Below are positions 11,698-23,763 of a DNA stretch of 35,815 bases, one piece after another (the first letter of the stretch is position 1; each line of letters opens with the position of its first letter). Origin of the DNA: Desulfobacteraceae bacterium (lineage in GTDB: Bacteria > Desulfobacterota > Desulfobacteria > Desulfobacterales > JAABSP01); the NCBI GenBank assembly GCA_011390065.1, contig JAABTD010000018.1:1-35815 (forward strand). The letters are read 5' to 3'. The notes below the pieces were generated by a model. That model was not told the origin of the DNA. It did not search any database and saw nothing but the letters and a program-made list of their open reading frames with translations. The translations under genes were made by a program, and so were the position numbers.

Positions 11698-14262
11698 TTA
11701 TCGGGCCGCTCGGATCATGGCATAAATCGCTTCCGCGACATCGACCCGGTTATTGCCGTTGACATCGACATCACCAGCGTCATAGTCGGAACGAAGGTCA
11801 TAGGGAATGCGGACCTGGATGCCGGACACGATTTTGAGTGCGATGACGGCATCGGTCAGATCCACCACGTCGTCATTGTTCAAATCGCCCCTGTCGGGGC
11901 CGTCGGACGGCGGCCATCCCACTCCTGGTAAAGCCGTGATGGCTACGGAGATCGCTGGTCGAGCGGGATCATTGGAAAAAATCGTAATATCGCCGGTGTT
12001 GTCGATGCTGTTGAGCACCGCGTTCCAGTCTGAGACAAAGATATTGAGGGACTTCCGGTCATCTGATGAAATGGGTAAAAAAGCGGAAGGAGAAAACTTC
12101 AACCAGGACTTGTTGGACCGGATATCGGATATGATCAGGTCGGCGGTCCCCGAATTGGCCACCGTTACAAAACTGCCGGCGCCTTCCAGGTACGCCCCTG
12201 ACGCCGTGACCGCATAGCTGCCGAATCTCACATGATCGGTCACATCGTCGTAGGCGATGCGGAAATAACCGTTCTCGCCCCACCAGTCGCCCCAACTGTT
12301 TTTAACCAGAAAATACTTCTGGAGATCGTTGTACCCCACCACCAGGACGGCGTGTCCCTGCTGGGCTGAAATGGAACCGCCCTGATAATCATAAATGCCG
12401 CCCTGATAGCCCATCCCCTCAAACGTGCCGTCGTCCGGGACCCGCATATAAACGATCAGCGGGCCGTTTTGCAGCGCCAGTTTCATATCATCGACGCTGT
12501 GTTCCTCCCCCCACAGCCCCATGGCCGACGTGTGCTCCCGGATCTTGATCAGGTAATTGGGCTGTTCGCACCGGTCCTGGCAGTTATTGTCCCTGGCCTC
12601 ATAGGGATGACACGCCTCCGAAGGGATGCCGTTCCGGCTGATGTAGCTCAATGCGTCCCAGTACCAGCCCCCCCTGCACCCGCCATCGGCGCAGGCGAGA
12701 ACCGTCTGCTCGGAGAGATCCGCAGCCTCCGGAATTTCTTCCTGGTTGACCAGGTTTTCCACCAATGCCACGGCGGCAAAGGCCCAGCATGAGCCGCATC
12801 CGCCCTGGGATTTGACCGGGCTGTCGAAACGGCGCCAGTCCACCCCCGACGGCAAGGCTGCGGCCATGGGTTTCAAGGGCGGAATCATCCGGCCCGTCCA
12901 GTACTGCTGAACCGCTTCCGGAACAACGATCCCCGATGCCGACGCGTTTTCCACGCTATCGCCGCCATCGGCGTCCGACCGGGTTTCCTGTCCGGTTCCC
13001 TGAGAGGAGGCCTGGTGCAAGGTCAGAGCGGATGGCGTGATTTCAATGCGGGGCCCGTCCGAATTCTGGGAATGGATATAGGCCGCGCCGGGCACGCTGT
13101 CCCGGACCCCGATCAGAAACCAGTCGCCTGACAGGCCGCTGTCCGCCGCTACGCGCCATCCGAACCGATCGCCGGTCCGCCCGTCGGTGGGCGTCAGTTT
13201 GGCTGTTTGTTCCCAGCCCCCGGCCATTTTCTCGTAAATATAGGCGGCCCCGGAATTGGCCCCCCATTTATCCGTTCCATCCGCCCCCACAACGATCGAT
13301 ATCCCCGAAAGCGCCACGGATCGACCGAAGAAATCGCCTGACGCCTCTGAGGAAGGCAGCAGCTTTTCATATTGGGTCCAGGACGAACCGCTGCGCTGAA
13401 AAACATAGGCGGCGCCGGCGTCCGTCCCCTGATCGTCATCCGCCGAGGCGCCGATCACAGCCCAATCGCCGGATATGGATACGGAAAACCCGAAAAAATC
13501 ATCAGCGCCGCTTTCTGCCGGCAGCAGTTTCGCCTCTTCGATCCATCGGCTGCCATCCCGCCGGTAGACATATGCCGCTCCCGACCGGACGCCGTTGACC
13601 CCATGATGGATGGCCCCGACGATGGCCCGGTCTCCGGAAACCGATACGGACCGTCCGAAATCATCCCCATCCCTGCCGTCCGAGGCGGTCAATTTGGCCG
13701 CCTGGGTCCATCCGGAACTTCCGCGGAGGAACACATAAGCGGCCCCTTTTCCACCTGCCCGGTAGGCGCCGATGACCGCAACATCTCCTGACATGGCAAC
13801 GCTGTAGCCAAAGGCGTCGTTCCGGCCCCCGTCCCCGGCCGTCAGCTTTTTCGACGGCTGCCATCCGGTGGATCGTCGTTCATAGACATAGGCGGCGCCG
13901 CTGCCGAAATCGGTCCCGTAATGATGAAAAGCGCCCACAACAGCCCAGTCGCCTGAAATAGCGACACTGTGGCCGAAGAAATCGTTTGGCATGCCATCCC
14001 ACGCGGTCAGTTCCGCCTCCAGCTCCCAGACGTTGTTTCCACGGCGAAACACGGAGGCGCTCCCCGCCCGAATGTCATCATCGACCTGATCGCGGCAAGC
14101 CCCAACAATAGCGCTGTCGCCGGAGATGCCTACGGCGCGGCCAAAGGCGCTGTCTGAAACATCGCTGTCCGCATCCAGCCTCACCACTGCCTGAATTGGC
14201 TGTCCAGCGGTCAGCAACAAAACCAGGAAGACAAAAAGCGCCGCGATCCTCTTTCCGGTCAT
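11698..14262 (-). CDS. Secreted FG-GAP propeller / papain-family (C1A) cysteine protease / dockerin-like fusion
   Basis: The 854-residue protein has, in order: a signal peptide (1-25); seven FG-GAP-type repeats of about 53 residues (about 38-410, unit 'FGxSVxxSGDxAVVGA...GAAYVY'); a linker; a papain-like protease with Cys492 in 'QGGCGSCWAF', His637 in 'GHAVLVVGY' and Asn655 in 'KNSWG'; an Ig/choice-of-anchor-like domain ('VANSGTADLIISDI', about 700-785); and two calcium-loop repeats of dockerin type (about 792-854, 'GDLNNDDVVDLTDAVIAL' and 'GDVDVNGNNRVDVAEAIY'). Seven repeats suggest a closed seven-bladed beta-propeller. The protease is intact, and no I29 propeptide is visible where one is usual. 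It is probably a surface or secreted endopeptidase. An AAGGAAA ribosome site precedes the ATG. Confidence 0.88.
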   Translation of the reverse strand: MTGKRIAALFVFLVLLLTAGQPIQAVVRLDADSDVSDSAFGRAVGISGDSAIVGACRDQVDDDIRAGSASVFRRGNNVWELEAELTAWDGMPNDFFGHSVAISGDWAVVGAFHHYGTDFGSGAAYVYERRSTGWQPSKKLTAGDGGRNDAFGYSVAMSGDVAVIGAYRAGGKGAAYVFLRGSSGWTQAAKLTASDGRDGDDFGRSVSVSGDRAIVGAIHHGVNGVRSGAAYVYRRDGSRWIEEAKLLPAESGADDFFGFSVSISGDWAVIGASADDDQGTDAGAAYVFQRSGSSWTQYEKLLPSSEASGDFFGRSVALSGISIVVGADGTDKWGANSGAAYIYEKMAGGWEQTAKLTPTDGRTGDRFGWRVAADSGLSGDWFLIGVRDSVPGAAYIHSQNSDGPRIEITPSALTLHQASSQGTGQETRSDADGGDSVENASASGIVVPEAVQQYWTGRMIPPLKPMAAALPSGVDWRRFDSPVKSQGGCGSCWAFAAVALVENLVNQEEIPEAADLSEQTVLACADGGCRGGWYWDALSYISRNGIPSEACHPYEARDNNCQDRCEQPNYLIKIREHTSAMGLWGEEHSVDDMKLALQNGPLIVYMRVPDDGTFEGMGYQGGIYDYQGGSISAQQGHAVLVVGYNDLQKYFLVKNSWGDWWGENGYFRIAYDDVTDHVRFGSYAVTASGAYLEGAGSFVTVANSGTADLIISDIRSNKSWLKFSPSAFLPISSDDRKSLNIFVSDWNAVLNSIDNTGDITIFSNDPARPAISVAITALPGVGWPPSDGPDRGDLNNDDVVDLTDAVIALKIVSGIQVRIPYDLRSDYDAGDVDVNGNNRVDVAEAIYAMIRAAR

Positions 14263-20258: not shown

Positions 20259-20723
20259 TTAACGCGACCGTTTGCCCGTCATAGCGATGAGTTGGACGCG
20301 GATAACCGTCGCAACGCTGAGCTGGGCGTCGGGAAATTCAGCCGTCCCCTGCCGGTTCCGGTCGTACCGGGCTGCGATGAGGTTCAACGCTTCCCGCTTT
20401 TCCTGAGGATCCACCACGACCACAGCCTCCCCCAATCCTACGACGCTTTCATATAGCATGGTCGCGCTGCAGGGCGATGCGCCCTCTTTTGGGGACGCGC
20501 TTCCGACAAAGGTCATGCAGACCTTCGGGTTTTTGGCGATGACCGCCAGTTTTTTCCCTTCGGCTGCACAATGAAGATAGACAATCCCATCCCGGTATCC
20601 GAAGCACAGAGGCACGCAGTAGGGTTGCCCGTCATCGGACATCGCCAGATGGCAGTAGACGGCCCGATCAATGATCGAGGCCATTTCATCCGGGTCGACG
20701 ATCGCTTTGTCTTTTCTTCTCAT
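20259..20723 (-). CDS. Pyridoxamine 5'-phosphate oxidase-family (flavin-binding) protein
   Basis: The 154-residue protein has the split-barrel flavin-binding pattern 'IDRAVYCHLAMSDDGQPYCV' (about 18-37), followed by 'PLCFGYRDGIVYLHCAAEGKKLAVIAKNPKVCMTFVG'. It is of the small NimA/flavin-reductase-like group rather than true PdxH, and the substrate is unknown. Its ATG overlaps the speE stop by 4 bp, so it is translated from the polyamine operon. A link to polyamine or SAM metabolism is suggested only by this position. Confidence 0.82.
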   Translation of the reverse strand: MRRKDKAIVDPDEMASIIDRAVYCHLAMSDDGQPYCVPLCFGYRDGIVYLHCAAEGKKLAVIAKNPKVCMTFVGSASPKEGASPCSATMLYESVVGLGEAVVVVDPQEKREALNLIAARYDRNRQGTAEFPDAQLSVATVIRVQLIAMTGKRSR

Positions 20724-21607
20724 GACGGAACGCCTTCGATGGGATCGAGTACGTCGGACAACCCATCGGCGACGAAATTGGGCAGCATGAAGGCGGCCCG
20801 ATGAATCCCGGCATTGTAGTATCCCGTCGGGAAGCCGGCGGCGTTTGCACGGTCGGCGTCGAAATCCTTTATGGGATGGTAGGTTTTAGAGGCGAAACCG
20901 AAACTCCAGAGCCCCCCGGGATAGGTGATATTCGAAAACAGGTAGAGGTGGAGCCGCTTGAAAAAGGGGCGCTGATTGCGCAACATGGGCAGTTGAATCT
21001 CGGCGTCGTAAAACGGGGATTCCGCCTGGGTGATCATGATGCCGTCATCGTTCAGGATCGCGGCCGCATGGCCGTAAAAGACCTTGTCAAAAAGGGGGGC
21101 GGCCGGACCGACGGGATCGGTGGAGTCAATGATCACCACATCGAACCGTTCCGCCGTCTCATTGACGAACCGGACGCCGTCTTCGATGTGAAGTTCCAGC
21201 CGGGGATCGTCCAGGGCGCAGCTGACGGCGGGGAAATGCCGCCTGCAGGCCGACACCACCGTCTCATCGATTTCGACCATCACGGCCCGTTTCACAGCCC
21301 CGTGCTTGAGCACCTCACGGGCCGTTCCCCCGTCGCCGCCGCCGATGATCAGCACCCGCTCGGGATTGGGATGGACCCAGAGCGGCACATGGGCGATCAT
21401 CTCGTGATAGATGAACTCATCGCGCTCCGACATCATCACGAGACCGTCGTTGAGCAGGAGGTTCCCATGCCCCGCGGTCTTGACCACATCCACCTGCTGA
21501 TAAGGGCTCTTTTCTGAAAAAAGGGTCTTTTCAACGCGGAACCGGAGCCCGACAATTCCCTTGTGGGTCTCGGTCGCCCATAGATCCGGTTTGTGATCGG
21601 ATGCCAT
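20720..21607 (-). CDS. speE: Spermidine synthase (polyamine aminopropyltransferase)
   Basis: The 295-residue enzyme shows the aminopropyltransferase fold: N-terminal beta domain with 'VDVVKTAGHGNLLLNDGLVM' (about 38-57), the nucleotide-binding 'VLIIGGGDGGTAREVLKH', 'MVEIDETVV', and the active-site 'IIDSTDPVGPAAPLFDKVFY'. It transfers aminopropyl from decarboxylated SAM to putrescine. The decarboxylated SAM would come from the gene 11 bp upstream. An AAGGAGGGG ribosome site precedes ATG 21607. It may alternatively make another triamine or tetraamine; spermidine is the likeliest product. Confidence 0.93.
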   Translation of the reverse strand: MASDHKPDLWATETHKGIVGLRFRVEKTLFSEKSPYQQVDVVKTAGHGNLLLNDGLVMMSERDEFIYHEMIAHVPLWVHPNPERVLIIGGGDGGTAREVLKHGAVKRAVMVEIDETVVSACRRHFPAVSCALDDPRLELHIEDGVRFVNETAERFDVVIIDSTDPVGPAAPLFDKVFYGHAAAILNDDGIMITQAESPFYDAEIQLPMLRNQRPFFKRLHLYLFSNITYPGGLWSFGFASKTYHPIKDFDADRANAAGFPTGYYNAGIHRAAFMLPNFVADGLSDVLDPIEGVPS

Positions 21608-21618
21608 TTATCCCCTCC

Positions 21619-22566
21619 TTATCTGGATATGCGGTGATGGTTGGAGAAGGTCACTGCGTAACCTGAATCGAATTCGTACATGCTTTTTTCCGTTACGCGA
21701 TAGCCGGACAGAATCTTCGCGGCCGAAGGATGGAGGGAGAGATAAGACTCGTGGAGGGTCGTGGTCAGCACCAGGGAAAACTTCGCCGGTCGAAAGATGT
21801 CGATCACTTCCCCAATCAGAACACCGTAATCTTGGTGGATGACGTTGGTTTCGAAACTGGCATAGGACCCGTTCGATTGCGGCGTGACGTGAGCCGTGAA
21901 ATAATGGTTCCCCAGCAGGCCGTTCATGGAATAACCGCAGGGCGCAAAAAGGTAGCCGTCAGTGACCGCATTCGGATAGAGCCCGGTGAGGCCGGATCGC
22001 TTTCCCGCCGCTTCCGGGGTCACCCCCTCGGCCAGGGAAAAGAGCTTAATGACGGCGGGATCGAGGTCGTTCATCAGGATTTGGAGCGTCGCATCTTTTT
22101 CAGGCTTGAGCTGTCCGTTCCAGTAATAAAACACATGGAGGTGATCATGGTTGGCAGGGCCCAACCGGTAGCTCTTTCCGGGAAAAAAGGGGAGCAGCCG
22201 GGCCACATCCGTCTCAAAATCGGCGGGCTGATCTTCGGGATACATGAGATTCTTGCGCTCGTAGAAAACATAGCCGATTCGATCTCTGGGGATGAACCCG
22301 AGCACCTCGTCCAACGCATCGATGAGCCGGGTCCGCCCGCAGGTGATCATGAGGATGCCGTCCCGCCAGACAAACAGGCTCGATTCCGACAGCAGATAAG
22401 CGTCCTGAGTCGGCGTGGACGCCCGGCTGAGGATCTGAGCCCCGCTGGCCGCCACCACCCGCAGCCACCGGCCGTTTTGGCCAGAACGGAGATTCGGGTC
22501 GGGCGAGGAAAGGATGATTTCCAGTTTTTTTTCAGGTCCTTCGAAAATTGTGGTGTCGGTCTCCAC
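21619..22566 (-). CDS. speD: S-adenosylmethionine decarboxylase proenzyme of eukaryotic type (class 2)
   Basis: The product of about 315 residues matches eukaryotic AdoMet decarboxylase along its length (human 334 residues), not the short bacterial SpeD/SpeH. Visible equivalents: 'FEGPEKKLE' (human Glu8 and Glu11 region), the self-cleavage and pyruvoyl site 'YLLSESSLFV' (Glu61-Ser62), 'ITCGRTRLID' (Cys76, human Cys82), 'NDLDPAVIKLF', 'PCGYSMNG' (Ser213, human Ser229), 'AHVTPQSNGSYASFETN' (His226, human His243). All processing and catalytic residues are kept. The start is placed at GTG 22566: the homologous N-terminus begins here, AAAGGGG precedes it, and the longer reading from 22653 starts upstream of the predicted transcript. 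It forms an operon with speE 11 bp downstream. Confidence 0.9.
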   Translation of the reverse strand: METDTTIFEGPEKKLEIILSSPDPNLRSGQNGRWLRVVAASGAQILSRASTPTQDAYLLSESSLFVWRDGILMITCGRTRLIDALDEVLGFIPRDRIGYVFYERKNLMYPEDQPADFETDVARLLPFFPGKSYRLGPANHDHLHVFYYWNGQLKPEKDATLQILMNDLDPAVIKLFSLAEGVTPEAAGKRSGLTGLYPNAVTDGYLFAPCGYSMNGLLGNHYFTAHVTPQSNGSYASFETNVIHQDYGVLIGEVIDIFRPAKFSLVLTTTLHESYLSLHPSAAKILSGYRVTEKSMYEFDSGYAVTFSNHHRISR

Positions 22567-22640
22567 GAAGCAGCCCCTTTCAAAGGGATGAAATGTCAAT
22601 CGTCGAGTTGGGCCCTGGGTTTTCAGGCTTAAAACCTCTA

Positions 22641-22669
22641 AGTATAAAAACAACGAAAGAGAAGGTCAA
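22641..22669 (-). promoter_or_regulatory. Sigma70 promoter of the speD-speE operon
   Basis: On the minus strand TTGACC (22669-22664), a 17-bp spacer and TATACT (22646-22641) make a near-consensus promoter. The -35 overlaps the stop codon of the upstream aminotransferase. Transcription would begin near 22634, leaving a leader of about 68 nt with two short hairpins, one (CCCTTTGAAAGGG) overlapping the ribosome site. Confidence 0.65.
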
Positions 22670-23763
22670 GGAAGAAGTTGCTGCAATGCCGTCTCCAGCG
22701 CGTCCAGGGCCTTGGACGCCAGATCCGGGTCGGCCTGGGATCCCATGTGCCCGAGGCGGAACACCTTCCCGGCCATGGGACCGTAACTGCCCCCCATCAC
22801 CGCCCCCTCCTTCCGGAGCGCCGCATCCAGGTCAGGCCAGGCGACGCCCTCCGGAACCTTAACAGCCGTCACTGTCGGCGACGGCGCCGCCGTCGCCTTG
22901 GGAAAAAGGGACAGTCCCATCTCCGCCAGGCGCCCACGACAGTCCGCCGCCACGGCATTGTGTCGTGTAAAACATTCCGACAGTCCTTCGTCCAGAATCC
23001 TTCCCGCGCCGGCGTCGAGCATGGCCACCCCGTGCCAGTTGGGGGTGTAGGGGAAATAGAAGTCCTCTTGGGCGGTGCGAAACGGCTTCAAGGCGTCGTA
23101 CCCCACGTAACCGACCGCATCGACGATCTCCCAGGCCGCGTCGCTCACCGACAGAAAGGCCATGCCCGGGGTCGAGGAAAGGCACTTCTGGGACCCGCCC
23201 AGGCAGAGATCGATGCCCCACTCGTCGGTGGAGACCGGCGTCCCGCCCACGCTGGAGACCGCATCCACGTAGAGCAACGGCACGCCGTGCCGGCGCTTCA
23301 AGTCCCCGATGCCGTCGATGGGGTTGAGGGTTCCCGACGGGGTCTCGCAGTGGACGGCGGTGATCATCCTGGGCTTGAAATCTTTGATGGCCGCCTCGAT
23401 GGGACCGAGATCCGTCACGGTTTCGTCGCAGGGGAGGGATACTTTTCGCACCTCGGCGCCGATGGACCGGGCCATCTCGCCGATGCCGTCCCCGAAGACG
23501 CCGGTGGCGATGGAGAGCACGCGGTCGCAAGGCGCAAGGCAGCTTTTCAGCGCGCCCCAGAGCGCGATCATGCCTTCTCCAGTGTGGATGACGACCGGAT
23601 TCCGGGTCCCCATGATGATCCGGAGACGGGCTTCGGTCCGGTTGTACAGATCCAGAAACTCGGTTTCAAGGTCTGCGGCGCCGTAATCGACCTGGCCGGC
23701 CGCCATCACCTCCGGCGGCACATGGACCGGGCCAGGCGTCATGGGGATGGGATAGGTTAGCAT
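22666..23763 (-). CDS. Class V aminotransferase (alanine-glyoxylate / serine-pyruvate type)
   Basis: The 365-residue PLP enzyme has 'MTPGPVHVPPEVM' at its N-terminus, 'HCETPSGTLNPIDGI' and 'YVDAVSSVGG' mid-protein, and the PLP lysine in 'LGGSQKCLSSTPG' near residue 190. The best family match is the alanine-glyoxylate/serine-glyoxylate/phosphonate aminotransferase group; the exact substrate pair cannot be read. An AAGGAG site precedes ATG 23763. It lies directly upstream of the polyamine operon, but the internal promoter at its 3' end suggests separate expression. Confidence 0.87.
   Translation of the reverse strand: MLTYPIPMTPGPVHVPPEVMAAGQVDYGAADLETEFLDLYNRTEARLRIIMGTRNPVVIHTGEGMIALWGALKSCLAPCDRVLSIATGVFGDGIGEMARSIGAEVRKVSLPCDETVTDLGPIEAAIKDFKPRMITAVHCETPSGTLNPIDGIGDLKRRHGVPLLYVDAVSSVGGTPVSTDEWGIDLCLGGSQKCLSSTPGMAFLSVSDAAWEIVDAVGYVGYDALKPFRTAQEDFYFPYTPNWHGVAMLDAGAGRILDEGLSECFTRHNAVAADCRGRLAEMGLSLFPKATAAPSPTVTAVKVPEGVAWPDLDAALRKEGAVMGGSYGPMAGKVFRLGHMGSQADPDLASKALDALETALQQLLP

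Follow-up and report, generated by a model that had tools for sequence, protein, structure and literature searches.

A eukaryote-type (class 2) S-adenosylmethionine decarboxylase encoded next to spermidine synthase in a Desulfobacteraceae bacterium

S-Adenosylmethionine decarboxylase (AdoMetDC) supplies spermidine synthesis in eukaryotes, and the human and plant enzymes are of class 2. An open reading frame that the first-pass annotation took for a complete enzyme of this eukaryotic type, in an operon with the spermidine synthase gene speE, lies on a 35,815-nucleotide stretch of a Desulfobacteraceae draft genome (contig JAABTD010000018.1; this whole stretch is called the window below). Does the gene, here called speD2, belong to class 2, what would its product do in this cell, and did such an enzyme arise in eukaryotes or in bacteria?

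Bacterial class 2 AdoMetDC is already known as a kind, published in 2019; the enzymes of Li, Kurihara, Kim, Liang and Michael (2019, Biochem J 476:2579) are likewise bacterial and of class 2. What is new here is the breadth over phyla, the near-exclusion of class 1 and class 2 within one order, the co-inheritance with speE and the nearness of the N-terminal half to class 1. The gene and its neighbours are as follows.

20259-20723, minus strand: gene for a PNPOx/NimA-like flavoprotein, overlapping the end of speE (PF12900, E 1.5e-22)
20720-21607, minus strand: speE, spermidine synthase, 295 aa, 11 nt downstream of speD2 (TIGR00417, PDB relative)
21619-22566, minus strand: speD2, class 2 AdoMetDC proenzyme, 315 aa, GTG start (PF01536, human match in the PDB, AF2 model, conserved start)
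22574-22579, minus strand: AAGGGG, ribosome-binding-like, 7 nt 5' of the speD2 GTG (direct reading)
22666-23763, minus strand: class V aminotransferase gene upstream of speD2 (PF00266)

The reading frame runs from the GTG at 22566-22564 to the stop at 21621-21619; the plus strand of 21619-22566 was considered as the coding strand and rejected. In 12 of 17 relatives within the order the start codon falls at the same place in the alignment, six residues before the X-FEG.EK motif. The speE product scores 311.3 bits with TIGR00417, above the cut-off, and has B. subtilis SpeE as its best PDB relative; the proposed operon holds. A PNPOx/NimA-like gene also follows speE in several relatives. An assembly artefact or eukaryotic contamination is ruled out by 18 other genomes of the order, by speE synteny and by one complete chromosome, that of Desulfonema magnum (L044, NZ_CP061800.1), which carries a homologous gene adjoining speE. 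Viral or plasmid carriage was likewise rejected, with no match in IMG/VR, plasmids or phages; viral fold matches to the SpeD2 model are weak or partial.

The class 2 assignment is borne out by profile, motifs, fold and catalytic residues. The SpeD2 protein matches PF01536 with an E-value of about 3.3e-72 to 4.4e-72 (243.9 bits against a cut-off of 22.2; positions 2-341 of 343). All 39 of its aligned relatives match this family too, and in the same check for a class 1 placement hmmscan gave no match to the class 1 SpeD family PF02675 up to E 1. With TIGR00535 (the NCBIfam equivalog SAM_DCase) the protein reaches 170.8 bits, below the curated cut-off of 233.15. In a phmmer search of the PDB, human AdoMetDC is the best hit (E 4e-47), followed by the T. 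brucei (5.6e-22) and potato (6.5e-20) enzymes. An AF2 model (pLDDT 92.3) superposes on the human proenzyme 1jl0 with Z 40.2 and rmsd 1.9 over 299 residues, and the protein is thus predicted to consist of two fused SpeD-type domains, about 300 residues, in the fold of human AdoMetDC. The C-terminal domain of the model also resembles the class 1b SpeD of T. maritima (1tlu; Z about 10, 9.9), a protein half as long; the two share in-register E-S, TCG, Ser and His motifs in a profile comparison.

For individual residues, 72 bacterial class 2 sequences were compared with three from eukaryotes (human, potato and T. brucei), the potato and T. brucei sequences being those of the PDB and most of the human one being covered by the PDB alignment. 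All of the motifs named by the first-pass annotation, namely the cleavage site LSESS, the Cys82 equivalent, the serine of CGYSMNG, the histidine of HVTP and the Glu8/Glu11 region, were located in the protein.

22381-22386, minus strand: codons of Glu61-Ser62, the predicted self-cleavage site (human Glu67-Ser68); LSESS invariant in the 72 bacterial and 3 eukaryotic sequences
22339-22341, minus strand: codon of Cys76 (human Cys82), invariant
21928-21930, minus strand: codon of Ser213 (human Ser229), invariant
21889-21891, minus strand: codon of His226 (human His243), invariant
21877-21879, minus strand: codon of Gln230, replacing the AdoMet-binding Glu247; 45 of 72 bacterial sequences have Gln here, all 3 eukaryotes Glu

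Glu8, Glu67, Ser68, Cys82, Ser229 and His243 (human numbering) are invariant across all 75 sequences, and Glu11 is present in 71 of the 72 bacteria; Glu8 and Glu11 correspond to E9 and E12 of the window protein. Position 247 varies within PF01536, Gln and Glu alternating among close relatives, and so is not taken to define the class.

Compared with human AdoMetDC (AMD1; 1jl0, 1msv), the window protein is 34-35% identical and shares the fold, the cleavage site and the catalytic residues, but it is 19 residues shorter. The claim that 20-30 residues are missing from its C-terminus was wrong: the alignment spans human residues 6-330 and includes Tyr318 (Y303 here), and the C-terminal strand that bears this tyrosine is present. 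The shortfall is spread over loops, with deletions at human positions 20-26, 101-104, 126-128, 143, 166-167 and 237 and of the last four residues.

Altered activation by putrescine, which had been proposed on the strength of that supposed truncation, is nevertheless plausible, for another reason: Lys80, Ser113, Glu178 and Phe285 of the human enzyme are replaced, by Ile, Glu, Gln and Thr, respectively. At position 80 the 72 bacterial sequences all have Ile or Met; T. brucei has Ile there, human and potato Lys. Ser113 has given way to Glu in 71 of the 72 bacterial sequences. The other two changes follow the two bacterial clades. Of the 40 clade A members, 21 have Gln for Glu178, the window protein included, and all 32 members of clade B keep Glu; for Phe285, clade A has Thr and clade B retains Phe. 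From the residue set for human-type putrescine activation, the window protein thus keeps Asp174, Glu256, Phe315 and Tyr318 and differs at Lys80 (Ile), Glu178 (Gln), Phe285 (Thr) and Phe320 (Val). Glu15, Asp174 (in 69 of 72 bacteria), Thr176, Glu256 and Tyr318 are retained. In the human enzyme, putrescine is bonded by Glu15, Asp174 and Thr176, and AdoMet by Glu67 and Glu247 (PMC3686867). By their PDB titles, human E178Q was crystallised with putrescine and D174N without. Since Lys80, Ser113, Glu178 and Phe285 are replaced and the five residues from Glu15 to Tyr318 just listed are retained, we infer that putrescine may still bind SpeD2 while its coupling to the active site would be altered, with little or no stimulation. 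Short bacterial forms with a naturally changed putrescine switch should be useful for structural work on activation.

The T. brucei enzyme (5tvf) shares the FEGPEK motif, Ile at position 80 and Asp174 with the window protein. Unlike it, the window protein has no N-terminal helix of the kind used for prozyme activation, and no second PF01536 gene (prozyme) was found in the window's genome.

How widespread is such a gene in bacteria? When about 85,000 genomes of bacteria and archaea were scanned with one pattern, 291 stretches matched. The top 80 of these 291, which were examined, come from at least seven named phyla: Thermodesulfobacteriota (Desulfobacterales), Spirochaetota, Planctomycetota, Acidobacteriota, Myxococcota, Bdellovibrionota and Elusimicrobiota. 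They also include a few records of unnamed phylum, and no archaeal member was seen among these 80 loci. Within the phyla the gene is sparse: class 2 occurs in 2 of 120 Elusimicrobiota genomes, 14 of 235 Myxococcota, 4 of 247 Acidobacteriota (above cut-off) and, phylum-wide, 2 of 247 Desulfobacterota, both inside the window's order.

Within that order, PF01536 is found in 19 of 96 genomes (18 besides the window's) and class 1 SpeD (PF02675) in 33 of the same 96, with both together in a single genome against 6.5 expected (Fisher p 0.002). Class 1 SpeD was not found in the window's genome, nor in 11 class 2-bearing genomes of other phyla, and a search of the window's draft genome for a second AdoMetDC of either class came up empty. 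In this genome, then, class 2 SpeD takes the place of the usual class 1 SpeD. A SpeD of one class or the other is present in 28 of 30 genomes that have a strong soluble-type SpeE match.

The locus itself differs between near relatives. A genus-mate (G001) keeps the synteny of NIL-ferredoxin, speE, minD and bactofilin genes, with speE adjoining minD, and lacks the PNPOx, speD2 and aminotransferase genes at this locus (L128); AdoMetDC of either class was not found in its 95% complete genome. At the locus of a family member (G002; L013/L060), the class V aminotransferase gene is retained.

The pairing with speE extends well beyond the window. Most clade A loci have the synthase gene directly downstream of speD2, as do most of those from Desulfobacterales, Spirochaetota, Elusimicrobiota, Bdellovibrionota and Acidobacteriota, and the identity matrices of the two proteins are closely correlated (Mantel r 0.89, reached in 0 of 2000 permutations). 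The Spirochaetota genes nest within those of Desulfobacterales for speD2 and speE alike, the pattern expected from joint transfer. Class 2-linked SpeEs separate from those of the same order whose genes adjoin a class 1 gene (93/97, in a small tree with long branches). Thus, speD2 and a bacterial SpeE lineage of its own have been passed on together. Class 2 speD genes without an adjoining speE are seen in Myxococcota (L068, L072, L083, L084, L089, L090, L094, L096 and L098).

Putting these results together, we give a probability of about 0.88 to the reading that speD2 encodes a class 2 AdoMetDC proenzyme, the only one found in its genome, with SpeE as its partner, an altered putrescine switch and a place within one bacterial group.

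Where this group came from is a separate matter. A careful tree separates the 72 bacterial sequences as a whole from those of human, potato and T. brucei (100/93). It is unrooted, with three long-branched sequences as its only eukaryotes, and one bacterial group beside three eukaryotes gives one origin without its direction. The first-pass annotation had offered either transfer from a eukaryote or an under-described bacterial branch. A gene in at least seven phyla fits the branch, and three eukaryotic sequences do not decide between the two.

PMC10407285 treats class 2 as an invention of eukaryotes whose sequence link to class 1 is almost undetectable, and it cites Li et al. (2019) for bacterial class 2 AdoMetDCs and for the proposal that these were acquired from a eukaryote. 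On this published account, one bacterium acquired the gene, which came to stand with a bacterial speE, and the two spread together among bacteria; we would place it just short of an even chance. The patchy presence in Desulfobacterota, Elusimicrobiota, Acidobacteriota and Myxococcota suits it, as does the Ile at position 80 found also in T. brucei, and the single bacterial group means that one transfer is enough. It is less easily squared with the deep bacterial diversity (37% identity between the two bacterial clades), with a partner speE of bacterial type or with the N half of the bacterial proteins, which is closer to class 1 than in the three eukaryotes. Relative to the acquisition as that source gives it, the present survey adds the spread over at least seven phyla (best 80 of 291 stretches) and the co-inheritance with speE.

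The N-half signal comes from profile comparisons. The bacterial class 2 profile has two in-register class 1 matches, one in the C half (E 2.9e-5) and one in the N half (1.1e-3); with the eukaryotic profile, the N-half match reaches only 0.33. When sequences are taken in threes, the N-half score against class 1 has a median of 22 for bacterial triples versus 13.6 for the eukaryotic triple, the C halves scoring equally, and 0 of 84 long-branch bacterial triples score as low as the eukaryotic one. This favours bacteria as being nearer to a fusion ancestor, though a difference in evolutionary rate could give the same signal.

The opposite direction, in which class 2 arose in bacteria by fusion of two class 1 domains, with eukaryotes as recipients and the bacterial operon the older, is possible but stands well short of even. 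Besides the paired class 1 matches and the higher N-half scores, it can draw on one bacterial member that matches class 1 PF02675 (E 0.0024), on the fused class 1 SpeDs that occur in the same order and on the absence of the human loop insertions from the bacterial proteins. Weighing against it are the unrooted tree with its three long-branched eukaryotes, slower change in bacteria as a source of the same N-half signal, and the sparse distribution, no archaeal member being among the best 80 of 291 loci. The fullest form of this idea, a bacterial invention from a class 1 fusion, kept in at least seven phyla as a speD2-speE operon and passed on to eukaryotes by such a bacterium, is a rather doubtful proposal that we offer tentatively. 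The broad bacterial branch reopens the question of which side had the enzyme first, and because it is co-inherited with a bacterial speE and has an N half nearer to class 1, the origin of the eukaryotic enzyme becomes directly testable.

Two side families bear some likeness to SpeD2. SpeD-SpeDC fusions of Desulfobacterales (L131; Desulfotignum, PMC10407285) also have two SpeD-type domains per chain, upstream of speE, in the same order, but they are clearly class 1 in sequence, and their speE belongs to another lineage, with about 40% identity to that of the window. In the fusion at L131:2024-2956 (minus strand), the second SpeD domain is degraded. The best PDB relatives of the neighbouring SpeE (L131:1152-2024, minus strand) are eukaryotic (human, 3.8e-86, then worm, plant, Plasmodium and yeast), with B. 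subtilis behind at 2e-63, and it groups with Arabidopsis (98/98, small tree). Fusions of this sort are proposed as ancestors of the eukaryotic enzyme in PMC10407285; a SpeE link between them and eukaryotes was not found in the passages of that paper that were examined.

The second is a 407-aa family in 5 of 396 Acidobacteriota genomes (L119:661-1884, plus strand; L120:1375-2598 and L121:713-1936, minus strand; L135; L136). It falls below the Pfam and NCBIfam cut-offs, and its alignment with the bacterial class 2 profile runs over the full length (E 8e-5, against 0.0085 for the eukaryotic profile). Its counterpart of ESS is ESH, which resembles class 1, and the stretch at the histidine reads HVTPN; its genes adjoin those of macrodomain-like and propeller-like proteins, not speE. 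A model from five near-identical sequences has pLDDT 30. Judged by its sequence, the family is possibly a third kind of two-domain AdoMetDC homologue.

As for function, SpeD2 is most likely this cell's only AdoMetDC, feeding SpeE and perhaps also a membrane-bound aminopropyltransferase. By analogy with the family, the proenzyme would cut its own chain at the Glu61-Ser62 bond, with Ser62 turning into the pyruvoyl cofactor that the larger chain carries, and the mature enzyme would convert AdoMet to decarboxylated AdoMet; SpeE would transfer the aminopropyl group onto putrescine to give spermidine. The bacterial class 2 AdoMetDCs studied by Li and colleagues are reportedly functional. The product of SpeD2 may also supply a second SpeE-domain protein of the same genome, a 526-aa membrane-type synthase encoded directly behind a DUF350 gene on another contig (G000:C39; L113:1577-3971, plus strand).

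That this DUF350-linked membrane-bound aminopropyltransferase, in a polyamine-independent role, is the main client in place of SpeE we consider improbable. The adjacency of the two genes speaks for it, and some class 2 AdoMetDCs are said by Li and colleagues to be linked to membrane-protein/SpdSyn-like fusions and to DUF350. On the other hand, the operon partner that co-evolves with speD2 is speE, the DUF350 cluster lies on a different contig, and long membrane-type SpeE-domain proteins occur in many genomes of the order, also in those without class 2.

A shift of substrate to ornithine or arginine, making putrescine, has precedents in class 1 SpeDC and SpeDA and could draw on the Gln at the AdoMet contact Glu247 and on the lack of any PLP-fold arginine or ornithine decarboxylase found in the genome, but it is very improbable, as no SpeD homologue other than SpeD2 was found, SpeE depends on decarboxylated AdoMet, and a Gln that alternates with Glu among close relatives could still bond to the ribose.

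With SpeD2 as the AdoMetDC that feeds SpeE, the supply of putrescine has to be accounted for. Searches of the draft genome with the PF02784 and PF01276 profiles turned up no ornithine or arginine decarboxylase of either PLP fold, so putrescine may be imported or made by another enzyme. PF01276 has no match, and the one PF02784 match (L114), which adjoins a DapL-like aminotransferase, looks like diaminopimelate decarboxylase. Elsewhere in the window, at 11698-14262 on the minus strand, reading by eye picked out an 854-aa protein that combines FG-GAP-like repeats with a papain-type protease stretch (CGSCWAFAA, VKNSWG) and, towards its end, dockerin-like repeats.
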